The position numbers and the translations under genes were made by a program. From an uncultured Pelagibacteraceae bacterium (GTDB taxonomy: Bacteria > Pseudomonadota > Alphaproteobacteria > Pelagibacterales > Pelagibacteraceae): a stretch of 61,213 bases of DNA. The notes beneath the pieces are model-generated. The model was given only the letters and a program-made list of their open reading frames with translations, had not been told where the DNA came from and did not search any database. Below are positions 3,662-49,012 of the stretch, piece by piece. Each line of letters opens with the position of its first letter. Position 1 is the first letter of the stretch. The stretch covers positions 1 through 61,213 of the forward strand of contig CACFTS010000003.1 in the NCBI GenBank assembly GCA_902569285.1. Direction: 5' to 3'.

Positions 3662-4342
3662 ATGAAATATTCTCAACTTAAGGAAATAATTAAAAAAAAG
3701 GCCTCAAAGACAGAATTTGCAATTGTGACTAATCTTGGAAACGGTTTAAGTGAAATATATGAACCTGCAAAATCATTAAGTAAGGAATTTGAAACACACA
3801 AAGAGCAAATTAATGATTTTTTTAAATTAAAAAAAAATGGAGTAATCGAAAAAACAGAAATATTTGTTGAAACATATATTAGACCTATAAAAGTTATTGT
3901 TGTAGGTGCAGTTCATATAGCTCAATATTTGGTAAATTTTGCAAAAAGTTTAAATTTTGAAATTTCTATAATAGATCCACGTGGTTATTTTGCATCAGAA
4001 CAAAGATTTCCAGATATAAAAATTATTAACAAATGGCCAGATGAAGCTTTTAAAGAAATAGGAACAAATGAAAATTCTGCACTAATTGCATTAACTCATG
4101 ATCCTAAAATAGATGATCCAGCATTACAACATGCTCTTAATAAAAAATTTTATTATATAGGAGCGTTAGGTAGCAAGAAAACTCATGCAAATAGATGTGA
4201 AAGATTAAAAGTTGCAGGTTTTAGTGATACCCAAATACAATCAATACATGGACCAATTGGAATAAAATTAGGTGGAAGATCTGCACCCGAAATAGCTTTA
4301 TCTATTATTGCTCAACTAGTTTCTGAAACTTATAAAAAATGA
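3662..4342 (+). CDS. XdhC family protein, Rossmann C-terminal-type domain
   Basis: VIVVGAVHIAQYL...ALTHDPKIDDPAL...YYIGALGSKKTHANRCERL...HGPIGIKLGGRSAPEIALSIIAQ. Confidence 0.85.
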   Translation: MKYSQLKEIIKKKASKTEFAIVTNLGNGLSEIYEPAKSLSKEFETHKEQINDFFKLKKNGVIEKTEIFVETYIRPIKVIVVGAVHIAQYLVNFAKSLNFEISIIDPRGYFASEQRFPDIKIINKWPDEAFKEIGTNENSALIALTHDPKIDDPALQHALNKKFYYIGALGSKKTHANRCERLKVAGFSDTQIQSIHGPIGIKLGGRSAPEIALSIIAQLVSETYKK

Positions 4343-4911
4343 TTAAAGCAATTCTCCTTGCTGCTGGTCAATCTAAAAGACTTAAATTTGAAAATAAACT
4401 AATAAAAATATATAAAAAAAAACCATTAATTAATCATTCATTAAATACATTGCACAAAAGTAAAGTTGATAAAGTTGTAATTGTTCTTGGTTATCAAAAT
4501 AAAGAAGTAAGAAAAGTGATTAAAAAGAATAAAAAAAATATTTTTGTATTAAACAAAAAATTTAGATTAGGAATGTCATCTTCAATTAATACTGGGATAA
4601 AAAAAATTTCAAAAAAAGATAAAGGGTTTATAATTGTTCAGTCTGATATGCCATTTATAAAGACTTCAGATATTAATAAAATCTATAATTCAATATCTAA
4701 AAAAAGATATTTAGTTTACGCATTAAAATTTAAGAATAAAATTGGCAATCCAATAGGTTTTGATCGTTCAGTATTAACTAAATTTAAAAGAATGAAAGGT
4801 GATGTTGGAGCTAAGTTTATGGTCAAAAGATTAAAAAATAATACTAATTTTATAAAAGTTTTAAGCAAAAAAGTTTTTAAAGATTTTGATTTAATAAAGG
4901 ATTTTAATTAA
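4339..4911 (+). CDS. MobA-like NTP transferase (molybdenum cofactor nucleotidyltransferase family)
   Basis: IKAILLAAGQSKRLKFENKL N-terminus; QSDMPF motif; overlaps the XdhC gene. Confidence 0.8.
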   Translation: MIKAILLAAGQSKRLKFENKLIKIYKKKPLINHSLNTLHKSKVDKVVIVLGYQNKEVRKVIKKNKKNIFVLNKKFRLGMSSSINTGIKKISKKDKGFIIVQSDMPFIKTSDINKIYNSISKKRYLVYALKFKNKIGNPIGFDRSVLTKFKRMKGDVGAKFMVKRLKNNTNFIKVLSKKVFKDFDLIKDFN

Positions 4912-5354
4912 ATAGCCTTGATAGGATTTCCTTTTAACCAAGTACTATCTTCATTTTCATAATGTTCTTTTTTCCAAATTGGAGATCTTTTTTTTATTTC
5001 TTCAATTATAAATCTAGATAAGACATAAGCTTGGTCTCGATGTTTACAAGCAACAGCTATAATAATACTTATATCTCCTAATTTAAGAAATCCTTTAGCA
5101 TGTTCAATAAAAACTGCTTTATCTGGAATATCAAGTTTTTGATTTGCTTCATTGTAAATTTCTTTAAAACTTTTGATAACCATATCATCATGACTGTCAT
5201 AAGTAATTCCAGTCACTTTTTTATTATTATTGGTATTTCTAACAGTACCTAAAAAATAAATTGATGCACCAAACTTAGAGTTTTTGATAAACTTTTCAGC
5301 GCTTGAAATAAATATTTTTTCTTTTTTATAATCTACTATTTTTGTGTGAAGCAT
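4908..5354 (-). CDS. moaE: Molybdopterin synthase catalytic subunit MoaE
   Basis: GASIYFLGTVRN...HAKGFLKLGDISIIIAVACKHRDQAY...KRSPIWKKEHYENEDSTWL. Confidence 0.9.
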   Translation of the reverse strand: MLHTKIVDYKKEKIFISSAEKFIKNSKFGASIYFLGTVRNTNNNKKVTGITYDSHDDMVIKSFKEIYNEANQKLDIPDKAVFIEHAKGFLKLGDISIIIAVACKHRDQAYVLSRFIIEEIKKRSPIWKKEHYENEDSTWLKGNPIKAI

Positions 5355-10817: not shown

Positions 10818-11812
10818 AGTTTAGATTTATTTTCTGCCATCGTTAATGCAATCTTAAATGAATTCAACGTAGGTTCTAAATTTGCTTTATTTTTTCCGGC
10901 AATATCGAAAGCAGTACCATGTGCTGGTGTTGTAATAGGTAATGGTAAACCACCTTGAACGGTTACACCTCTATCAAAACCAAAAGCCTTGAGACCAGAT
11001 TGTAATGCATCATGATACATACCAACTATACAATCATGATTTTTATTTTTAAAAGCTGTAATAAAAGAAGTATCGCAAGGTAAAGGACCTTCTGCATTAA
11101 TACCTTCTTTTTTTACCTCTTCAATAGCTGGAATTATTTCATTTTTTTCTTCCTCACCGAATTCTCCATGAGGATTTAAGGCTTGAACTGCAACGCGTGG
11201 ATTTTTAATTCCATTAAGTTTCATTGCTTCGTTTATTAGTTTTATTGGTTTAATAATATTTTCTTTTTTAATATGATTAGGAACCTCACTAATAGGAATA
11301 TGAGATGTAACTCTAGCAGTCCAGAAATTGTCTACAACATTAAATTCACAGAAAAAATTTTTTACATCTAATTTTTCAGCCATTAAATGAAGTTCATCTG
11401 AGTGCGTATTGCCACCCATTTTCATACTTGTTTTATTGAAAGGACCAAAGTTAATAGCATCTATTTGATTTTGTTTTGCAAGATCTAAAGCGAGATTAAG
11501 AGACTCTAAAACACTTTTTCCAGATTCTTTAGAACACTCTGCTAAGTTGTAATTGTGATTTTTACCTTTTGAAATATCTAAAAAAAACTTATCTTCTTCT
11601 TCAAAATTAATCTGTTCAAATTTTTCAACAAATTTTAAATTTTGTGATTTTCCTGAGATCTTATTTCCTTGTTCTAAAATTTTTTTTTCACCAATTATAA
11701 CTATATTTGCTTTATTGGTAATTTCTTCACATAATAACTTTGAGACCAATTCGGGTCCAATACCTGATGGATCACCTAATAATACAGCAATTTTAATTTT
11801 ATTTTTACTCAT
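10814..11812 (-). CDS. PdxA family (4-hydroxythreonine-4-phosphate dehydrogenase or PdxA2-like)
   Basis: [17 protein letters not shown]...[12 protein letters not shown]...[43 protein letters not shown]. Confidence 0.88.
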
Positions 11813-37075: not shown

Positions 37076-37666
37076 TTAATCAACTCTTTTGCTTGCTTTC
37101 CATTCACCACTATAAGTTTTTCCAGAATTGTAAACAGATTTTCCTTGACCATGTTTTCTGAAAGCTTTCATTTCACCTGTGTATGTACCATTTGAATACT
37201 TACATATTTTAATTTTTGGATCATTAGTATTTTTACAATAGGGAGATAATTTATAAATTTTTTCTCCATAAAAAAGTGAATAGATAATTATAAATGAAAT
37301 TATGAATGGAGTCGTAATAGCAATGATTGGAAGTTTTAGTATCAATAAATTTTTTATTCCTGCAACTATGAAAATTTCATCAAACATTGTGGTAAATATT
37401 TTTGCTAAATAAACATAAACACCGATCATTAATAAGCTAAAAAATAGATCTAAATTTAATAAGTAACCAGCTGAAAATAAAAAGATTATAATTATTGAAG
37501 AAAGAATTGAAGCTCCTACGACCCCTAAATAGTAGATAATAATTAAAGATATATTTAAAATTACTGTATTAGATTTTAAAAATGAACCCAACCAACCTAA
37601 AAGAAACATAACTAAAATAAATGTATTTAGATGATATATGTATGGATGTACTAGACCTAAGTTCAT
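37076..37666 (-). CDS. Multi-TM membrane protein with C-terminal MORN repeats
   Basis: About 5 hydrophobic segments then YSNGTYTGEMKAFRKHGQGKSVYNSGKTYSGEWK. Confidence 0.65.
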   Translation of the reverse strand: MNLGLVHPYIYHLNTFILVMFLLGWLGSFLKSNTVILNISLIIIYYLGVVGASILSSIIIIFLFSAGYLLNLDLFFSLLMIGVYVYLAKIFTTMFDEIFIVAGIKNLLILKLPIIAITTPFIISFIIIYSLFYGEKIYKLSPYCKNTNDPKIKICKYSNGTYTGEMKAFRKHGQGKSVYNSGKTYSGEWKASKRVD

Positions 37667-40575
37667 TTTTTATTTTCTTTTTTTTCTTTAATTCTCTTTT
37701 TTAGTATATGAAAAATAATACTACTATTTATTGTTAATTCACTTTCTTTCTCTTCTTCAATTTTATTATAATTTTCTTCATCTTTCCCTTCAAGATGATA
37801 ACTGGTAATATCTTTATCTAAATTTTTTCTTTGCAAATTCAATAAAAATTTTTCTCTTTTAGTTCCAATTTTTTCAAATATTTCCTCAAGCTCTTTATTA
37901 GAAATGTTTTTTTCAGCAAATCCAATTTGAAGATTCAAATTTGTGTTTGCTAATTCAATAGTATTTTTTAATCTTGTACCTATATTTTCATCAAAAGAAA
38001 ATCCAAGTTTCTCAATATTTTTGATATTATTAATCTTTTTAAAGTCTAAAATTATGGGGTTTTTTGCATTTTTCTCTCTACGTCTTTTTTCTTTTTGATA
38101 AGCTGAGTTTTCATCATTGTCCCAATCGTATTTAATTTCACAATCTTTACATCCAACATCTAATGTAATTTTTTTAGCTTTTTTAAATTTTGTAATTAGT
38201 TCATTGTACCATTCATGGACTAAATTCAGTTCTTTTTTTTCATAATTACACAAAATTTCGATTTGCTCTAAATCTTTATTTATAAGTTTGAAAAATTTAA
38301 TAATATTTACATTAATTTTTTCATTACCAAATCTTGGAAAATAAATCTTTAATATTTTCAATTTTTTTGAATATTGTAAAAAATCAAAGTCATTCTCAGT
38401 TAATGGTTTGTGAATTATACCATCAGTAGAATTCATTTCTTTGGTTATCATGCATGGATTAACTATTTCGAGTTCCTCTAAATTTTCAAGGTTTGATAAA
38501 TTTTTGATCAGGGTTTGATCAATTGATTTTATTTCCAACTTTTTAAGATTTTTCAAATTATTAAAATTTGTTAAATCAACATCAGTTGTATTCCACCACG
38601 TATCTTCATAATTGTAAGTAAGGCCAATATCCAAATTAATTTCCTCAAGTTTATTTGATTTATCAATGTTCATTACTTTTTTTGTCACATTAGGTTTATT
38701 ATCTTTCATAAAAGGATAGCGAGTGGTAAGCGAAAGTTTTTTTAAATTTTTAAAAGTAGGAAACTCCCAACATAGTGGATCTTTCTGATTTATATAATTA
38801 TTAAAATGTAAATCTTCTAAATTTTCTAAAATTTTAAGAGAATTTAAAGAACAAGGTGGAGATGATCGAAGGCCAAACTTTTTAACTTTTAAATAATTTA
38901 TAGATTTTGGAAACTGAAATGTTTTATTTTCAAACAATTTTTCATGATTAGGATATTGTTCCTTGTCAACGTAAAAGAAATTAATATTTTCTAGATTGTT
39001 AAAAATTATCTTTTTGGATTGATCTAAAAAACTTTTTTTTATTATAGGAACACAGCACCCTGGATTTTTTTCAAAATCAGAAATACTCCAAGATCCCTCA
39101 AAATAATCATATTCATAAAATTCTTTAAATGATTCTTCACTTTTCTTCTTTAATTTATCAAAATCTATTGGACCTTCGAATATCGACAAATAATAAGGAT
39201 CATCAAGATTAATATCTAAAAGCTCTATATCTTTAAATTTTTTAAGAGTTTCTGAATTCGATTGATCATCAACAACAATTACTGATTTAATTTCATTTAA
39301 ATAAATTTCATCAACAAATTTTTCTATATCTGAGTTTTTTAAATTTTTAATTTCAATAAATTTTTTGTAAGTATCTTTATTTTGACAATTGAGGAAAAAT
39401 TTAAATATCTCAATAAATTTATGATAATTTGAATTAAAATCATCAAATGAATTTAAATCTTTAAAGTTTATTGAACAAAAAATTTTTTTTTCAATTATAT
39501 CTTTTATTAACCGAATAGAATATTCTGAACAACTACGACCTACTGTTTCCCAGAAGTCATTAAAATCTAATTCTAATGTAATTTTTTTGATTGATTTATT
39601 TTTTATAATTTTTTCACTTATAAAATCATAAGTAGTATCAAAGTATTCAAAATGATTATCTAAAAAACTTCCAACTGTATTAATGATTACATGATCTAAT
39701 TTTGATTTTATAATTTCATTAAAAATATTGGAGTAACCATTGTAATTTTGTGATGGCCAATGAACTTCCAAGGTATCTTTTAATTCTTCATGTTTTTTAA
39801 CTTGTGTTCTATTTCTTTCCTCAGCTTCTAAGTATTCATAATCTAGAAGTAAGGTTTTTGACTTAGTTATTGTCTCTCTATATTTTGATATTTTTTTACT
39901 ATTAATGTTTATTTTTTGAGTGTTAGGAAGTGATAAGAGTTTCTCAAATATTATTTTTTTTTCAAAAATATCCTCATCAATCTCTGTTAGTTTTATATTT
40001 TTTAAATTTTTTAGCCTTAATAAATTATAAATATCGCATTGAAAAAAAATATCCTTTCCTTCATATATTTCAGAATAATAATAATCATAATCCTGCTCTT
40101 TAAGATTTTTTAAAAAAATATCATAATTAATTAGCTCTATTTCACTTAATCCTTGATATGCATTAGGGTAATTAGGAAAAGCATTAATAAAATTATTAAA
40201 GTTATTCTGTCTGTCATATAATTCTAACATACTTAAGTTTGGACTATCTTCACTTGGAAAAGCAAAAGCTATCTTATTTAATTGAGGTATCTTTATATTA
40301 ATTTTTGTATCAGATTTTTTTATTATACAGTCATAATCATATTTTAATATTTTTAAACTTTGTATTTTTGAAATAGCCTTAAAAAAAATATTATTATCAA
40401 ATAGGCAATTTTCTAATTGAATTTCATTAAGTTGAGTAAATTTAGTAAGTTCATCCCAGTTTGTTTCATTATTAAAATTTTTGAGAATTAAAATTGTGAT
40501 GTTATCTGGATTTTTTACTTCATTTATAAACGATTTAGAATTTACAGTTTTTAATTGATCAACTATAGTTTCCAT
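37663..40575 (-). CDS. 970-aa leucine-rich repeat protein
   Basis: Recurrent LRR-like units, e.g. NLKNLKKLEIKSI, NLENLEELEIVNPC, FKNLKKLSLTTR, SLKILENLEDLHFNN. Confidence 0.7.
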   Translation of the reverse strand: METIVDQLKTVNSKSFINEVKNPDNITILILKNFNNETNWDELTKFTQLNEIQLENCLFDNNIFFKAISKIQSLKILKYDYDCIIKKSDTKINIKIPQLNKIAFAFPSEDSPNLSMLELYDRQNNFNNFINAFPNYPNAYQGLSEIELINYDIFLKNLKEQDYDYYYSEIYEGKDIFFQCDIYNLLRLKNLKNIKLTEIDEDIFEKKIIFEKLLSLPNTQKININSKKISKYRETITKSKTLLLDYEYLEAEERNRTQVKKHEELKDTLEVHWPSQNYNGYSNIFNEIIKSKLDHVIINTVGSFLDNHFEYFDTTYDFISEKIIKNKSIKKITLELDFNDFWETVGRSCSEYSIRLIKDIIEKKIFCSINFKDLNSFDDFNSNYHKFIEIFKFFLNCQNKDTYKKFIEIKNLKNSDIEKFVDEIYLNEIKSVIVVDDQSNSETLKKFKDIELLDINLDDPYYLSIFEGPIDFDKLKKKSEESFKEFYEYDYFEGSWSISDFEKNPGCCVPIIKKSFLDQSKKIIFNNLENINFFYVDKEQYPNHEKLFENKTFQFPKSINYLKVKKFGLRSSPPCSLNSLKILENLEDLHFNNYINQKDPLCWEFPTFKNLKKLSLTTRYPFMKDNKPNVTKKVMNIDKSNKLEEINLDIGLTYNYEDTWWNTTDVDLTNFNNLKNLKKLEIKSIDQTLIKNLSNLENLEELEIVNPCMITKEMNSTDGIIHKPLTENDFDFLQYSKKLKILKIYFPRFGNEKINVNIIKFFKLINKDLEQIEILCNYEKKELNLVHEWYNELITKFKKAKKITLDVGCKDCEIKYDWDNDENSAYQKEKRRREKNAKNPIILDFKKINNIKNIEKLGFSFDENIGTRLKNTIELANTNLNLQIGFAEKNISNKELEEIFEKIGTKREKFLLNLQRKNLDKDITSYHLEGKDEENYNKIEEEKESELTINSSIIFHILKKRIKEKKENKK

Positions 40576-40601
40576 ATATTTAACTTATCATATTAAAAAA
40601 A

Positions 40602-42143
40602 ATGTCAAAAGTAATTGGAATAGACCTTGGTACAACCTTTTCTGCAATTGCAAGTCTAGATGATCTTGGAAATCCTGAAGTATTAGCAAGTATAGAAGAT
40701 AATAGAAAAATTACAGCTTCAGCGGTTTATGTTAAAGAGAAAGAAGTTATTGTCGGTGATAAAGCTCTTAATTTTGTAAAAGATGAATCTAAAAATGTAA
40801 TTCTTCAAACTAAAAGAGAAATGGAAAATGATGTTGTTTACTCAACTGAACAAGGTAGATGGGTAAATGATAAAAATTTAGTTGACACATATACACCTGC
40901 ACAAATTAGTGCATTGATATTAAAAAAATTAAAAGAATATACAAATGATGTAAAAAAAGCTGTAATCACGGTACCTGCTATGTTTGCAGAAAGAGCCCGT
41001 CAGGCAACTTTAGATTCTGCAAAAATTGCTGATATAGAAGTTATTGAATTAATAAATGAACCCACAGCAGCAGTATTACATTACGCAAGTTTGCCTGGTG
41101 TTGAGGTTGGGGGAAGAGTTATGATTTTTGATTTGGGTGGGGGAACTTTTGATGTTACCTTTGCTGAAGTCAAGAATAAGAAAGTAGATGTATTAACCTC
41201 AAGAGGAGACAAATACTTAGGTGGAAGAGATTTTGATAAAGAAATTACAAAATTAATTAAAAAAAAATATTCTGATATTCATAAGGTTGAATTGGATATT
41301 GAAAATAACAAAGAGTATATTCATAAAGCTGAAGAAGTTAAAAAAATTCTTTCTGTTAAAAATATTGCAAGTGTAGACATAAATGGTCCAAAAGGGTTAC
41401 AAAAAATTGAAATTACCCGAGAAGAATTTGAAGAATCTATACAAACTTATATAGAAAAAATTAAAATGCTTATTGAAGAGGCGATGGAAGCATCGAATAT
41501 GAAACCTTCTAGAATAAACCAAACATTGTTAGTAGGAGGTAGTACAAGAATTCCGATTATCACAAAAGTATTGACAGAATTAATGGGTAAGCCTCCTGTA
41601 AAGGGAGTTAATGTAGACGAAGCAGTTGTTTGTGGAGCTGCAATTTATGCAGGGTTGAAAACTGAAAATAAAACTCTTAGTGATGGACAACAAGAAGCTT
41701 TAAAAGATGTTAAATTAACTGATGTTTGTAATTTTTATATGGGTACTTTCGCAGTAATACTCGATCCTTTAACAAAAAGACAAATAATGGCTAATACTAT
41801 AATAATAAAAAGAGATCAAAAATTGCCTGTTAGTGTTACTAAAAGATATACAACTATGAACGAAGGGCAAGAGGAAATTGAGTGTTCAGTTACTCAAAGT
41901 GAAGGACCTGAGGACAACAAAGAATTTGTAAATGTTATTCATGACGCAATGTTAAAACTTCCAAAAGGAAGAGCGGCTGGTCAACCTATTGATATAACAT
42001 ACTCTTATGATGAGTCTGGTAAAATGCACTGCATGTTTACTGATGTAGAGTCTGGCAACACTCATGAAATTGAATTATCACCTGAAACAACAGAATCTAT
42101 AGATAATGCCAGAAAACAAATTGAAGAAATTTCAATTGAGTAA
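40602..42143 (+). CDS. Hsp70/DnaK-family chaperone, short (513 aa)
   Basis: VIGIDLGTTFSAIA, VPAMFAERARQATLDSAKIA, INEPTAAVLHYA, FDLGGGTFDVT, LLVGGSTRIPII. Confidence 0.93.
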   Translation: MSKVIGIDLGTTFSAIASLDDLGNPEVLASIEDNRKITASAVYVKEKEVIVGDKALNFVKDESKNVILQTKREMENDVVYSTEQGRWVNDKNLVDTYTPAQISALILKKLKEYTNDVKKAVITVPAMFAERARQATLDSAKIADIEVIELINEPTAAVLHYASLPGVEVGGRVMIFDLGGGTFDVTFAEVKNKKVDVLTSRGDKYLGGRDFDKEITKLIKKKYSDIHKVELDIENNKEYIHKAEEVKKILSVKNIASVDINGPKGLQKIEITREEFEESIQTYIEKIKMLIEEAMEASNMKPSRINQTLLVGGSTRIPIITKVLTELMGKPPVKGVNVDEAVVCGAAIYAGLKTENKTLSDGQQEALKDVKLTDVCNFYMGTFAVILDPLTKRQIMANTIIIKRDQKLPVSVTKRYTTMNEGQEEIECSVTQSEGPEDNKEFVNVIHDAMLKLPKGRAAGQPIDITYSYDESGKMHCMFTDVESGNTHEIELSPETTESIDNARKQIEEISIE

Positions 42144-43724
42144 ATGAAAATAATTTCATTAATTGTAATATTATTCTTTTTTTGTTTTAATATATACGCT
42201 GATGATGAATTTAATCGAAATTTAGAGATAATCAAAAAATTTGAAAAAGATATAAAAGAGAGGAATGATCAAATTCAGCTAGATGATAAAAGAATAGAAG
42301 ATATAATTAAAAAAATACAAAAAAACCCTTCGCTAACTCGAAAAACAACAAATGAAGATTGGTCTCAAAAATTAAGACCATTTATAATCCCTTTATTAAT
42401 TGTTCTTTGGTTGATCTTTAGAAGTGATGATCAAAAAACAGATAAACCAAGAAAAAAAAGAGATAATCAATCTAAAATTGATGAATTTATAAATAAATCG
42501 AATAGGAAAAATAAAAACAATAAGAGTGAAGATGAATTTGAAGAAAATTTTAATGATTACTTTGGAATTAATCAAGACAAAAAAGAGGACCTACCTGAAA
42601 ATTCTTTTAGAGACAATTTAAATATTAAGATTGAGGAAAGAAATCATGAAAATAGTTTTTGGTATTTTATTTTAGGCTTTGGAACATTTAATTTAGAAAA
42701 CAAATATTATAAATTAATAGATAAAGAAAATAGCGAAGCTAAGTTCACTGTTTATGTTTTTGATATTACTGATGAAAAAGAAGAAATAGCAATACAAGGG
42801 TTAATAGATCCATTTAAGGATGAAAACTATTTATTATCAATGAATAGATCAATGAAAGTTGGACCTGGATACGGTTACTTTGAATGGACACCAATTTTTT
42901 TATTTCCAAAAAATCAACTTATTCCACCATATAGGGGAGAAAGAAAATTAAAATTTAAACTCTTTATGACTAATAAGAAAGCTAAATTTGATAAAGCTAA
43001 TATTATCAATAAAAAGGATCTTTATTATTCAACAGAATGTATATTTAATCTTAATTTTGAAGAGCCAGGCTACTTAGAGGAAGATAAATATGAAGAACAG
43101 GTAAACGAAAAAATTGTCCAACTTGGATTAGCTGTTGCATACTCTGAAAAGAAAATTAATCAAAAAGGAGTTGAAGCTATAAAAAGTTGGATTAATCAAA
43201 AAGTAATTTTAAAGAATTTTTTTTTAGAAAATACTGAAGAGGAAAATAAAAATAAAATTAAATATTCATTTTTATTAAAAAATACATACGAATTATTAAG
43301 AAATAATAAATTATCTTTGTCTGAAATAGTTAAGGAACTCAATCATAAATCAAGTTCATCTAAAAGATATGATGCAATGAATTTACTGTTAAATATAGCA
43401 GGGTCTGACGATCGTTTAAGTTCGCAAGAGGACAAGTTGTTAAATCAGACAGCAAGAGCTCTTGAATTAGACATGAATAGATTTCAACAGATGAAAACCT
43501 CAACTATTGCAAATATTGATAGCATTGAAGAAAATGGTGATGATAATGAAGAAACTATATTCAATTTTTCTCCTGATATGACTGATGCTGATAAATGTAA
43601 AAAATTAAGAGAGGAATATACTAGATGGAATAGACAAACTAACAATTCTAATGAAAATATTAAAAAACAAGCTAAAAAAATGGTTGAGTTGACAGCAAAA
43701 CTTAGAAAGAAATATAATTGTTAA
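42144..43724 (+). CDS. Membrane-anchored TerB-like protein with J-protein-like C-terminal helix
   Basis: Signal/TM N-terminus and second TM (LRPFIIPLLIVLWLIFR); TerB-like IVQLGLAVAYSEKKINQKGVEAIKSWI...LLLNIAGSDDRLSSQEDKLL; C-terminus KKLREEYTRWNRQTNNSNENIKKQAKKMVELTAKLRKKY. Confidence 0.6.
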   Translation: MKIISLIVILFFFCFNIYADDEFNRNLEIIKKFEKDIKERNDQIQLDDKRIEDIIKKIQKNPSLTRKTTNEDWSQKLRPFIIPLLIVLWLIFRSDDQKTDKPRKKRDNQSKIDEFINKSNRKNKNNKSEDEFEENFNDYFGINQDKKEDLPENSFRDNLNIKIEERNHENSFWYFILGFGTFNLENKYYKLIDKENSEAKFTVYVFDITDEKEEIAIQGLIDPFKDENYLLSMNRSMKVGPGYGYFEWTPIFLFPKNQLIPPYRGERKLKFKLFMTNKKAKFDKANIINKKDLYYSTECIFNLNFEEPGYLEEDKYEEQVNEKIVQLGLAVAYSEKKINQKGVEAIKSWINQKVILKNFFLENTEEENKNKIKYSFLLKNTYELLRNNKLSLSEIVKELNHKSSSSKRYDAMNLLLNIAGSDDRLSSQEDKLLNQTARALELDMNRFQQMKTSTIANIDSIEENGDDNEETIFNFSPDMTDADKCKKLREEYTRWNRQTNNSNENIKKQAKKMVELTAKLRKKYNC

Positions 43725-44863
43725 TGTATAATGTTTTAGATAAATTTAGATATTCGAAAGATGATCCATCTCAATTAAATATTTCTCTTAAAAAAGATCC
43801 ATATGAAAAAGTTAATAATAATAATTCAAATAATTTAAACCAATTACTTTCAACTTCTGTAAAAGTTTCAAAAGAAATATTTCCAAATATTAATTCAGCA
43901 ATCGATAAAGTATTTGAGAGATTAGAGATAAAAAATAATCTTAATTTTTTTGTTACTGCTAATCATTTTCAAACTCAAGCCTCATGTAGTGCAATGCCTT
44001 TAGGAGATAGTGCTGAAATTATTTTAACTTCAAAACTTATTGAATTATTAAATGATCAAGAACTTCAATCTGTAATAGCTCATGAAGTTGCTCATTTTTA
44101 TTATCAACATGCTTTATATCCACAAGCAAGTAGTTCAAAAAATAGAACACAGATCTTAAACCTTCTAAATTTTTCAAGGGCAGCTGAAATAAGTGCTGAT
44201 CGAATTGGATTTATCGGTTGTGGAAGTTTAGAAGCATCTCTACGAGCTATGCTCAAGATTACATCTGGACTAGATGAAAAGCATCTTAAATTTAATTTTA
44301 GTTCATATTTAAATCAATTAAGGGAACTTAAAGAAATAAAAGGAGACAAAAATTTAATGTACTCAACACATCCAAATTTTTTAAATAGAATGCAAGCACT
44401 TATATGGTTTTCAATGTCTAATGAATACAATGATCATTTTGATACAGGTAAAAAGGGTACTTTTAATCTTAAGGCTGTTGATGATAAAATTTATGATAGT
44501 ATTAAAAAAGTAATAGGTGATGAGGTTGATTATTCTAATAAAGAGGTTGTGAGTAGAGCTTTAATGTGGGGCTCTATAGATGTTTTTTTATCAGATAAAA
44601 AATTCTCAAAAAAAGAACAAGAAATATTTAAAAAAAATTTTGGTGACAAAAGTACAGAAAGTATTCTTTCATTAATAAAAATCTCTAACCCAAAATCTAT
44701 TCATGAAAAAATAAAGAATACATTTGAAGAAGCATCTAAATTATTAAATAAGGATAAAGAAAAAATTGTTAATGAACTCACAAAATTATTAAAAATTGTT
44801 GATGGAGAAAAAAAAATAGCTGAAAAAGTAATAAAAAAAATAAAGACAAATCTTAAAATATAG
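43718..44863 (+). CDS. M48-like zinc metallopeptidase
   Basis: SVIAHEVAHFYYQHAL (HExxH) and downstream AAEISADRIGF. Confidence 0.85.
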   Translation: MLMYNVLDKFRYSKDDPSQLNISLKKDPYEKVNNNNSNNLNQLLSTSVKVSKEIFPNINSAIDKVFERLEIKNNLNFFVTANHFQTQASCSAMPLGDSAEIILTSKLIELLNDQELQSVIAHEVAHFYYQHALYPQASSSKNRTQILNLLNFSRAAEISADRIGFIGCGSLEASLRAMLKITSGLDEKHLKFNFSSYLNQLRELKEIKGDKNLMYSTHPNFLNRMQALIWFSMSNEYNDHFDTGKKGTFNLKAVDDKIYDSIKKVIGDEVDYSNKEVVSRALMWGSIDVFLSDKKFSKKEQEIFKKNFGDKSTESILSLIKISNPKSIHEKIKNTFEEASKLLNKDKEKIVNELTKLLKIVDGEKKIAEKVIKKIKTNLKI

Positions 44864-44876
44864 GTTTAAATTAGTA

Positions 44877-45533
44877 ATGAGTAATCAAGTATTAGGAACT
44901 TTGCATGGATTTTGTAATACTAAAACTGAAGATGGAGAAATAGAAAAAGTATATAAAAATTTTACAGAAGGTAAATTAACTTCATATTTAAAAAAACAAG
45001 AAAATTATCTAAAAATATCTGATAAAAAAGTTTCAGATAAGATGAACCTTATAGAATTAAAAGGAACTTATATAGGACACTTTGTTTATCCAATTAACTC
45101 TTTAAAAAGAGATAGGGTTCAGTCATATAGAATTGATGAAATGGAAGATAGATTTATTCCAGAGTCTATGGGTGGAAAAGGATGGGAAAAAGGAAATTTT
45201 AATTGTTTACAAATATTTAATGTTGAAAAGCCTTTAAATGAATTAACATTAGGCAATCACATAGGTCGTAAAGTTTTCATGCAATTAATAGATTTAGATG
45301 ATGAAGAGTATAATTTTATAAAAGATTATGATGATAAAATTAAACAACTAGTATTAGTAGTTAAAAATAACAAACCTTTGCCAAATCTTTCAGTTAAAAA
45401 AGCGACTGAAGAATTAGAAACTAGCTACACAGATATGAGAGATGCTATTCATGATGGAATGTTTAAAACTGAAAAAAGAAAAAAGTTTCCAATAAATAGA
45501 TATGACTCTTATGTCAGTTGGAGTGATGGATAA
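44877..45533 (+). CDS. Unknown protein, paralog A
   Basis: 218 aa; IDLDDEEYNFIKDYDDK...FKTEKRKKFPINRYDSYVSW shared with next gene. Confidence 0.7.
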   Translation: MSNQVLGTLHGFCNTKTEDGEIEKVYKNFTEGKLTSYLKKQENYLKISDKKVSDKMNLIELKGTYIGHFVYPINSLKRDRVQSYRIDEMEDRFIPESMGGKGWEKGNFNCLQIFNVEKPLNELTLGNHIGRKVFMQLIDLDDEEYNFIKDYDDKIKQLVLVVKNNKPLPNLSVKKATEELETSYTDMRDAIHDGMFKTEKRKKFPINRYDSYVSWSDG

Positions 45534-45543
45534 AAAATAAGTT

Positions 45544-46245
45544 ATGGGAATATTTGATATTTTTAATTCTAAAAAGACTAGTAATGTAGGTTCACTGGGT
45601 GTTTATCATGGTATGGATTTAAGAGAGTGGAATGATGGATATAAGTCTGATGAAAAAGGAATATTAAAATTTATTAAAGCTAAATTAAAATCAATGTCTG
45701 ACGATGAGTTTATAAAATTTCTTAAGAATAGAGATCTTTACAGAAAATTTACTCATCATGAAGCTAATGATGAAATGAATAAATTAAAAGTCACAGAACC
45801 AAAAGGTCTATCTTCACTAGCATTAACAAAGTTTGATTGGGTTTTTTATCCAAAAATATTACTAGAGCGAGATTCTAATATAATTGGATTTAAGATTACA
45901 GACAGTGATGTTGCTTATGAAGGGAAAAAAAAGGGAATGAAATTTAAAAAAGGAAAAACTTTAGTTATGTTGTCACAAGATAGAAAACAAGAATACCTTA
46001 AGTATTGGGAAAAAAATTTATCTTGGCAAAAAACAGTTCATATGATGGGTTTTCAGTTTGTTGATTTAGACGACGATGAGTATAAATTTTTAAAACCTTA
46101 TGAAAATAAGTTTAAAAATAAAAATTTTAATAATGAGGCATGGGATGATTTTATAAGTAATGGTCATAATCCCTTATTTGCTACAGAAAAAAGAAAGGCT
46201 TATCCAATCAATAGATTTCAAACATATCTAGTTTTCGAGGAATAA
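45544..46245 (+). CDS. Unknown protein, paralog B
   Basis: 233 aa; VDLDDDEYKFLKPYENK...FATEKRKAYPINRFQTYLVF shared with previous gene. Confidence 0.7.
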   Translation: MGIFDIFNSKKTSNVGSLGVYHGMDLREWNDGYKSDEKGILKFIKAKLKSMSDDEFIKFLKNRDLYRKFTHHEANDEMNKLKVTEPKGLSSLALTKFDWVFYPKILLERDSNIIGFKITDSDVAYEGKKKGMKFKKGKTLVMLSQDRKQEYLKYWEKNLSWQKTVHMMGFQFVDLDDDEYKFLKPYENKFKNKNFNNEAWDDFISNGHNPLFATEKRKAYPINRFQTYLVFEE

Positions 46246-46437: not shown

Positions 46438-47499
46438 TTATCTAGTCTTGTTCCATTTATCTAAAAATCCAGAAATTCCAATTTTATTTATTTCTTTAAA
46501 TAGTTCCTCTAAACTTTCATCCATTGACTCATTTAACTCAATTACGTCCTCTAAATTTTGTAATGTTAATTTCAGTTTTTTCTTTTTTTTCTCCGAAATA
46601 TTTATTTTTTGCATAATAATATTCTTAATTATTGGATTTTCTAAAAAATCAATTGCCGAAAGAAGATTTTCTTTATTATTTCCTTTATGTTGATCAATCA
46701 AGACATGGGCCCATCTTTGTGTGGTAGCGAGATTTCTTAATGTTGGAAAATCATATTTACAGATAAAAATATTACCTTTGTGATCCCAAGGAACATCTTT
46801 AGGAAAATCTTTTGGGGTTGCTCTTGTAAATATTACACCAATATTTGATTTTGAATCCTTCATATCATCTTGTATTTTTTTAATCCACTCATTACTCCAA
46901 CTTTTTGTATTTTTTCTTTCATACAAAATTTTACAAATAGTATGATTGTTTTCTATTACTTCTTGTAACCAATCTCCACCAGCAGCTCCTTTTGCATATG
47001 CAGTAATTTTGTCGTCTTTATCTTTGAATATTTTTTTTAAAAATTCTCCAAGTGAAATTTCTGCTCCAGAACCTTGATCTACAGTAGCTCCTTGATTTAC
47101 AGTTTGATTTAATGTTTGAATTTGTTTGTTTAATCTATTCTTTTCTAATTCCCATTTATTTTTATCTTCACTATGTTTGTTAAGTTGATTTTCTCGATCT
47201 TTTTTAATAGCATTCTCCATTATAGCATCATAGTGCTCCTTGTTTGCTGCTCTGTCTTTCTCTAAAGCCTTCTTAATTGCTTCTGATTTCTCTAAATCAC
47301 TTTTTTTAATTTGTGCTTCTAATTTTTTATTTTTTTCCTCTTGATTTTTTTTATCCTCTTCAAGTTTTTGAATTCTATCTTGCTCTTGTTTTTTAGCATC
47401 ATTTATTACTGTCTGTGTTAAATCATTAAAATGGCTCTCTAGTCCTTGTTTCATTGGAAACTCTTTTTTGCAATGAGGACACGTTATTTTTTGGCTCAT
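46438..47499 (-). CDS. DUF2130 family protein, nuclease-like
   Basis: Zinc-finger-like CPHCKKEFPMKQGLESHF; coiled coil; GDWLQEVIENNHTICKILYERKNTKSWSNEWIKKIQDDM. Confidence 0.85.
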   Translation of the reverse strand: MSQKITCPHCKKEFPMKQGLESHFNDLTQTVINDAKKQEQDRIQKLEEDKKNQEEKNKKLEAQIKKSDLEKSEAIKKALEKDRAANKEHYDAIMENAIKKDRENQLNKHSEDKNKWELEKNRLNKQIQTLNQTVNQGATVDQGSGAEISLGEFLKKIFKDKDDKITAYAKGAAGGDWLQEVIENNHTICKILYERKNTKSWSNEWIKKIQDDMKDSKSNIGVIFTRATPKDFPKDVPWDHKGNIFICKYDFPTLRNLATTQRWAHVLIDQHKGNNKENLLSAIDFLENPIIKNIIMQKINISEKKKKKLKLTLQNLEDVIELNESMDESLEELFKEINKIGISGFLDKWNKTR

Positions 47500-47500
47500 A

Positions 47501-49012
47501 TTAGTTGTTTTTAGTTTTTTCCATTAAATATCTTATCAGATAATAGACTGCCAAGGTATCTTTAGAACAATAATCTATTAAAAGTTTTTTCTGATTTTCT
47601 ATTTCTTTTTCATCAGTTTTAGGATCTGTACAAATAAACCAAGCTAATTGTGCATCATTGCCAGATACTATATTATCTTTTTTTTCATAACTAATATCGC
47701 TAATTGGTATAACTTTATTAATTACTTTTAATTTATATTTACATTTCATAATTGGATTATAAAATCCTTTTTTAACAATTTTTTCACTATCTAATATTCT
47801 TGGTTCTAATTTATTAATTTTATTTTCTAAATCTTTGCAGCTATCTTTTTTCTTTAAATTTTTTAAAATTGTCTTTTCGTAAGGAGAATGAATAAATATA
47901 GTTCCTTTATCACCTAGCTCATTTAAAAGACTTTCAGCAAATTTTCTTTCTATATTTTGATCTAAAAATTCTAAAAACCAATTTGCATCATTTATTTTGA
48001 TTTTTTCGTCCAAGGATGACCATTTGTGTACTGACCACTGAAAAGGTAACTGGGTGAAAGGTTTTGTTCCCTTTATTTTTGGAACTACTTGTTGTACAGT
48101 TTCAAAGTCCATAAAATAAATTGGCCAACTTAAATCTTTAAATTCGTAGCTTAAGATTTCACGATCAAGCAAGATTATATTTTCTTTATGACATTTTTGA
48201 ATTTTTTTTTGATTCTCATTTAACAGATCTGCAGGTACATCTTCTAATTTTTTAATTCCATTCGCTTTACAGTGTTTTTCTATTTTTGTGCCTTTTATTC
48301 TTCCAGGCAACATTTCATAAGAAATTATATTTGATTTAGGTTTACATCTATCTATATAATCACATTCATGAGGTTCATTGCAATGATCTCCAATTTTTAT
48401 GTTAGGACATGGTGATTCTTTAGTTAAAGGTAATAATTTTTTAATTAGACTTGGTATTTCTTTTTCTTTTTCAACAACTTGATTTGTAACATCAATCTCT
48501 AAAGGTAAATCTCTATAATCTCTTTCAGTTTTAAAAATAAAATTATTATTAACGTGAATTAATTTAATGTTAGTTAAATTAATACCCAATTTTTTAAGAA
48601 TATAAGATTGAATTGCTAAATCTGTTATATAATAATTTTTTAGTTCTCCTGATGACTTTATTTCTAAAAGTTCCCATCCTTTATTTTTTCTAATTAAAAT
48701 ATCTGGCCTTATATAAGTATCAAAAAAAATGAACACACCTTCAAAAATAACATTTATATCTTTAGAATTAATAGCTTGTTCAGTTTTTTCTTTAGATTTT
48801 ATCCATTCCTCTTCTTTGGAAGGTAGGTCTAAAACATTTTGATCTTTAGAATAAATTTTTTTGACTTCATTTTCAAAGAGATAAGCTCTTAATAAAATAT
48901 TATTAACTTCAGATTTTTTGGATTTATAAATATCAAACCAAAGTTTTTTTTCACATTGATGACCACTCATAATTTTAGTCTTTGTAAGCTTGTAACTTTT
49001 ATTGTTCATCAA
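47501..49012 (-). CDS. DUF2779 family protein (Cas4/RecB-like PD-(D/E)XK region plus RNase H-like region)
   Basis: SGHQCEKKLWFD; IRPDILIRKNKGWELLEIKSS; IYFMDFETVQQVVPK. Confidence 0.8.
   Translation of the reverse strand: MMNNKSYKLTKTKIMSGHQCEKKLWFDIYKSKKSEVNNILLRAYLFENEVKKIYSKDQNVLDLPSKEEEWIKSKEKTEQAINSKDINVIFEGVFIFFDTYIRPDILIRKNKGWELLEIKSSGELKNYYITDLAIQSYILKKLGINLTNIKLIHVNNNFIFKTERDYRDLPLEIDVTNQVVEKEKEIPSLIKKLLPLTKESPCPNIKIGDHCNEPHECDYIDRCKPKSNIISYEMLPGRIKGTKIEKHCKANGIKKLEDVPADLLNENQKKIQKCHKENIILLDREILSYEFKDLSWPIYFMDFETVQQVVPKIKGTKPFTQLPFQWSVHKWSSLDEKIKINDANWFLEFLDQNIERKFAESLLNELGDKGTIFIHSPYEKTILKNLKKKDSCKDLENKINKLEPRILDSEKIVKKGFYNPIMKCKYKLKVINKVIPISDISYEKKDNIVSGNDAQLAWFICTDPKTDEKEIENQKKLLIDYCSKDTLAVYYLIRYLMEKTKNN

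Follow-up and report, generated by a model that had tools for sequence, protein, structure and literature searches.

A gene cassette encoding a lidless Hsp70, a membrane TerB protein and an M48 peptidase recurs in SAR11 and other bacteria

Positions 40602-46245 of the window (the whole stretch of 61,213 nt analysed here, contig 3 of a genome bin of 840 kb and 59% completeness) hold five open reading frames on the + strand, spaced by 0, -7, 13 and 10 nt. Do these genes form one functional unit, and what would it do in a genome that encodes a full-length DnaK (641 aa) and a housekeeping GrpE elsewhere? At this locus the window is closest to single-cell genomes and MAGs carrying the label Pelagibacteraceae, which makes it SAR11-type; no RNA families were found near the operon. 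A preliminary description had outlined tightly spaced genes for a short Hsp70 without a full lid, a membrane TerB-like protein, an HExxH M48-like peptidase and two related proteins; this outline held up. The five genes and two upstream neighbours are:

40602..42143, + strand: lidless Hsp70, 513 aa (Pfam HSP70, 6.6e-82)
42144..43724, + strand: membrane TerB protein, DjlA-like, 526 aa (Pfam TerB, 6.7e-10, residues 326-451)
43718..44863, + strand: soluble M48 metallopeptidase, 381 aa, TTG start (Pfam Peptidase_M48, 5.5e-17)
44877..45533, + strand: SAR11-subtype paralogue copy 1, 218 aa (family alignment A5)
45544..46245, + strand: SAR11-subtype paralogue copy 2, 233 aa (BLASTP, AF2 model)
37663..40575, - strand: LRR-like protein, 970 aa (homologues beside SAR11 cassettes)
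37076..37666, - strand: 196-aa protein with three hydrophobic segments (hydropathy; homologue at locus L024)

The conserved cassette consists of three of the five genes, those for the lidless Hsp70, the TerB protein and the M48 peptidase. A further 19 loci, from members of the Pelagibacterales, from other Alphaproteobacteria and from two Gammaproteobacteria, carry both the M48 and the TerB family, and nearly all of them have a cassette-type Hsp70 gene immediately upstream. Because the order Hsp70-TerB-M48 recurs in unrelated genomes at protein identities of 20-39%, the arrangement is more than chance. All five genes had been proposed as one module, a reading that would fail if they did not co-occur elsewhere. 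The first three do co-occur elsewhere and are thus taken as the unit, but the last two are confined to a SAR11 subtype, and a GrpE-like gene is added in most lineages.

A search with the M48 protein in 290 genomes of the class gave matches in eight. The six matches with E <1e-30 outside the window's own genome all had a TerB gene directly upstream, preceded by Hsp70 in five. The sixth locus (L017, genome G131) has a 239-aa fragment of a cassette-type Hsp70 just upstream of TerB, masked by an antisense open reading frame; its frame (about 11086-11655; G131:C1:104085-104654) matches only positions 308-498, and the GrpE-like gene had no match in this genome. The TerB alignment, used as query, extended the set by four Pelagibacteraceae, a Rhodospirillales MAG, the cultured isolate Parahaliea maris (L028), a gammaproteobacterial MAG and a further alphaproteobacterial genome. 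The cassette is carried by 8 of 298 Pelagibacterales genomes; in a phylum-wide sample of 399 genomes it occurred only in the window's own genome. Clustering of the loci, window excluded, placed M48 at 21, TerB at 20, Hsp70 at 18 and the GrpE-like gene at 13. At L059 the contig stops upstream of TerB, and a cassette-type Hsp70 lies at another contig end of the same genome; at L061 the M48 gene is adjacent but on the opposite strand. Copy-to-copy distances of the four families were correlated for all pairs (rho 0.76-0.85, Mantel p <=0.0015), so the families have travelled together, with common organismal descent contributing to the correlation.

The window Hsp70 has a complete nucleotide-binding domain and SBD-beta, and stops where the lid begins. 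The alpha-helical lid is missing from all cassette Hsp70s aligned with the window genome's own DnaK (the window copy and 12 others), and the 16 copies measured are 496-521 aa long. The ATPase residues D8, T11, K70, E171, D194 and T199 are identical in all 13 aligned proteins, which together with the Pfam match places the protein, by its sequence, in the Hsp70 superfamily. It is not a DnaK (285 bits against an equivalog cut-off of 822.55, and no lid). Nor does it fit HscC, given its length, the missing lid and a partner without HPD. R167 pairs with Asp35 of the HPD motif of J-domain proteins (PMC13012618; PMC8215388), and this R167-D35 pair is the contact by which HPD triggers hydrolysis (PMC13012618). 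R167 is lost in 13/13 cassette Hsp70s, where Glu, Ser, Tyr or Asn takes its place (Glu in the window). The positions of Y145 and N147 are also altered, and the loop bearing the GPKH sequence of DnaK is shortened.

In most cassette Hsp70s the very C-terminus is a conserved tail, I-[ED]-x-[FI]-x-[VI]-[ED], which is absent from the window genome's own DnaK. In the window this tail lies at 42114-42140 and the protein ends QIEEISIE. The tail is a possible docking motif.

The TerB protein combines the following parts:

42144..42200, + strand: signal-like hydrophobic N-terminus, residues 1-19 (hydropathy 2.22)
42378..42428, + strand: probable transmembrane segment, about residues 79-95 (helix 74-93 in the AF2 model)
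42621..43058, + strand: beta-sandwich, residues 160-305 (AF2 model, pLDDT about 80-90)
43071..43505, + strand: TerB domain, residues 310-454 (Pfam TerB; Foldseek)
43542..43712, + strand: J-like C-terminal helices without HPD, residues 467-523 (hhalign, AF2)

Hydropathy of the transmembrane segment is just under the cut-off in the window and over it in the orthologues at L024, L032 and L033. In the AF2 model of the whole protein (pLDDT 72, pTM 0.52), the TerB domain matched the TerB-fold protein PG1108 (2h5n, Foldseek prob 1.00), and the beta-sandwich gave only weak Ig-like matches (e.g. CsgC), nothing close. No TerC/TerD-type partners were found among the Pfam-scanned neighbours in the window, and the locus is accordingly not assigned to the Ter (tellurite-resistance) systems.

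The C-terminus had been described as J-protein-associated, which proved right in part. By profile comparison it is J-like (hhalign score 22.5, probability 33%, against a maximum of 16.0 in 100 column shuffles), and the model places helices at 469-472, 481-501 and 504-523, the last two antiparallel. NCBIfam DjlA matches residues 388-514 weakly (E 0.00096, below cut-off). However, the HPD motif is absent in 20/20 sequences, a Pfam DnaJ search of the window's own genome misses the protein, and a J domain was not among the top Foldseek matches for the model. The predicted layout of membrane segment, TerB domain and J-type helices is thus that of DjlA, the J helices being weak, but by its motif the protein would not count as a J-domain protein. 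With HPD missing from the TerB protein and R167 from the Hsp70, the canonical contact has, judging from the alignments, been lost on both sides. We infer that the two proteins still bind each other.

In two SAR11 variants, L060 (7346-9610, 754 aa) and L061 (6856-9456, 866 aa), the TerB protein carries PDZ domains instead of the membrane segment, and the membrane anchor is on the GrpE-like protein. The idea that these PDZ domains act as extracytoplasmic or periplasmic sensors was rejected: the proteins have no signal or transmembrane segment, and the domains are therefore cytoplasmic.

At most loci outside the window subtype an extra gene precedes Hsp70, overlapping it or at most 19 nt away. 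The encoded protein carries a coiled coil, a C-terminal domain and one or two membrane segments; for one copy, whose start is doubtful, three are predicted. Single sequences matched Pfam GrpE below the cut-off, and profile-profile comparison was therefore used. The profile aligned with housekeeping GrpE over the head and beta domain (hhalign P 1.3e-5, score 44.6, against a maximum of 18.9 over 60 column shuffles), with P 0.3 or worse for unrelated cassette families, and by sequence the gene is related to GrpE over these parts. A search of PDB profiles with the family gave either coiled-coil background or GrpE at no better than E 1.1. The gene was not found in the window-type SAR11 genomes G000 (59% complete) and G410 (94% complete), and the identical profile detects it in four other SAR11 genomes. 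At every complete locus examined, at least one of the TerB and GrpE-like proteins has a membrane segment.

The M48 peptidase appears catalytically intact: its active-site residues H122, E123, H126, E157 and D161 (HExxH + ExxxD) are identical in 16/16 sequences, as expected of a member of the family with its Glu ligand. HtpX, BepA and LoiP share this active site. The cassette enzyme differs from them in being soluble, with no transmembrane segment by hydropathy and no signal, in its C-terminal TerB-like domain and in being encoded with an Hsp70. It falls outside the HtpX subgroup (no transmembrane segment; <=33.7 bits against cut-offs of >=245). The additional domain lies at:

44483..44860, + strand: C-terminal TerB-like domain of the M48 peptidase (hhalign)

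Compared with the TerB domain, this C-terminus gave P 5.9e-5 and a score of 32.3, against a maximum of 18.2 in 100 shuffles. It could plausibly serve as a dock to the TerB protein. To our knowledge, there is no precedent for a soluble M48 peptidase working with an Hsp70.

The last two genes of the operon encode paralogues (BLASTP 3e-9) without significant Pfam matches. Their family co-occurs with Hsp70 and TerB at window-type SAR11 loci and nowhere else, with one or two members per locus. The members change fast (27-69% identity to the second window copy). The AF2 model of copy 2 (pLDDT 79, pTM 0.78) had no PDB or BFVD match at E <0.001. That the pair might share the beta domain of the TerB protein or the GrpE fold was rejected on comparison.

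The LRR-like gene has homologues beside the cassette at L024, L033 and L034, and distant ones at L060 and L061, and therefore looks like a SAR11 partner. It is divergent from Hsp70, and at four loci the two starts are 26-27 bp apart (26 bp in the window), so the promoters must overlap coding sequence. The intergenic spans are 40575-40602 in the window, 3960-3987 in L024, 1578-1606 in L033 and 5855-5883 in L034. The gene for the 196-aa protein overlaps the LRR gene by 4 nt and has a homologue in the equivalent place in L024 (5e-59).

Other genes were observed near the cassettes. Beside the window operon, on the - strand at 46438-49012, are genes for a DUF2130 coiled-coil protein and a DUF2779 protein with weak Cas4-like similarity; a DUF2130 gene also adjoins the L060 cassette. 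A helicase with an RNase H-like domain (~1020-1120 aa) is encoded near three SAR11 cassettes (L024 10494-13856, L034 11650-14718, L060 14088-17462). In L016, the cassette (GrpE-like/Hsp70/TerB/M48) directly follows a tyrosine-type phage integrase gene (3715-4953), a hint that it may be mobile.

Every part of the cassette belongs, by sequence, to a known superfamily, and the combination fits none of the systems tested. Among the closest is DjlA of E. coli, whose short periplasmic N-terminus is followed by a transmembrane segment, a cytoplasmic TerB domain and C-terminal J-type helices forming a J domain; this membrane protein acts with DnaK and the nucleotide exchange factor GrpE (PMC11709261). 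In contrast to DjlA, the cassette lacks HPD and has an extra beta-sandwich, a private lidless Hsp70, a private membrane GrpE-like protein and a linked M48 peptidase. HscC with DjlB and DjlC is likewise a short, specialised Hsp70 of sporadic occurrence, with partner genes nearby and suspected membrane-protein clients, but its J-domain partners bear HPD, GrpE use is not expected, and the published account has no linked peptidase (PMC8215388). In the alignment both HscC and the cassette Hsp70 have a deletion in lobe I of the nucleotide-binding domain, at a similar place; HscC is longer (550-580 aa) and keeps a partial lid. Pam16 of the mitochondrial import motor is a membrane-bound J-like protein without HPD. 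This motor (mtHsp70, Pam16, Pam18, Mge1) resembles the cassette in combining an Hsp70, a GrpE-type factor and an HPD-less J-like protein, a likeness for which no homology is claimed; it differs in its translocation role and in having no TerB domain and no peptidase. The preliminary description knew of no named system of matching composition, and none was found here. Nor did a literature search recover a description of the combination; subscription journals were mostly outside its coverage, and a description there is possible.

The reading we favour, to which we would give an even chance, is a private, membrane-tethered Hsp70 quality-control machine for membrane or envelope proteins, coupled to a protease. 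As in DjlA, the TerB protein would be anchored in the inner membrane and expose its TerB and J-like domains to the cytoplasm. It would keep the dedicated lidless Hsp70 beside membrane clients through an HPD-independent contact. Clients would be recognised by the beta-sandwich, or by the cytoplasmic PDZ domains in the variant. The Hsp70 would cycle on ATP. In most lineages the private membrane GrpE-like protein would drive exchange; in the window subtype, fast intrinsic exchange or the housekeeping GrpE might take its place. Clients beyond rescue would pass to the soluble M48 peptidase, which would dock by the TerB-like domain it carries. The two paralogues and the LRR protein of the SAR11 subtype may serve as client adaptors or be targets, variable in either case.

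An Hsp70 that lacks the lid may hold its clients weakly, and it could act in signalling instead of as a chaperone. The absent lid and the loss of canonical J control also suit a regulated-proteolysis switch, in which M48 is kept inactive at the membrane by the Hsp70 and the TerB protein until envelope stress leads them to release or activate it. M48 would then cleave a specific target, e.g. the LRR or paralogue proteins, and the Hsp70 would be a conformational regulator, not a folding chaperone. The SAR11 partner genes vary as specific targets might (TerB 57-92% identity, against 83-98% for Hsp70), and the divergent LRR gene shares its start region with Hsp70. Outside SAR11, however, no recurrent candidate target gene adjoins the cassette, and we consider such a switch possible but rather unlikely. 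Somewhat more doubtful is an Hsp70-powered protease, in which the lidless, HPD-independent Hsp70, held at the membrane and cycled there by its J-like and GrpE-like partners, unfolds membrane clients or delivers them straight into M48. If true, Hsp70 would play for a metallopeptidase the part that AAA+ rings play for FtsH or Clp.

It is improbable that the cassette is dedicated to assembling just one membrane or envelope complex, as HscA/HscB is to iron-sulphur clusters, with the peptidase trimming or maturing a single client. Private partners do coevolve with specialised Hsp70s such as HscA and HscC, whose spread is sporadic (PMC8215388), but no conserved client operon was found alongside the cassette across lineages, and single-client Hsp70s are expected to do without GrpE (PMC8215388), whereas the cassette brings a private GrpE-like factor. 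Least credible is the anti-phage role raised in the preliminary description, an abortive-infection module whose chaperone would sense phage proteins and unleash M48 or the variable proteins: the cassette is patchy and rare, its accessory genes vary and one copy adjoins an integrase, but the five proteins had no PADLOC match (only capP at E 0.017 for M48), the neighbours are mostly housekeeping genes with isolated methyltransferase or candidate matches and no recurrent defence genes, and no relatives were found in phage, plasmid and viral contig collections.

In the textbook, Hsp70 control depends on the HPD-R167 contact, and the cassette appears to have lost both sides of it together. With this apparent loss, the ATPase residues intact and an exchange factor of its own in most lineages, the cassette makes HPD-independent control of an Hsp70 directly testable. 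It would also couple an Hsp70 to a dedicated protease, a rare combination. SAR11 genomes are among the most streamlined known, and the cassette would be an accessory proteostasis system in them.
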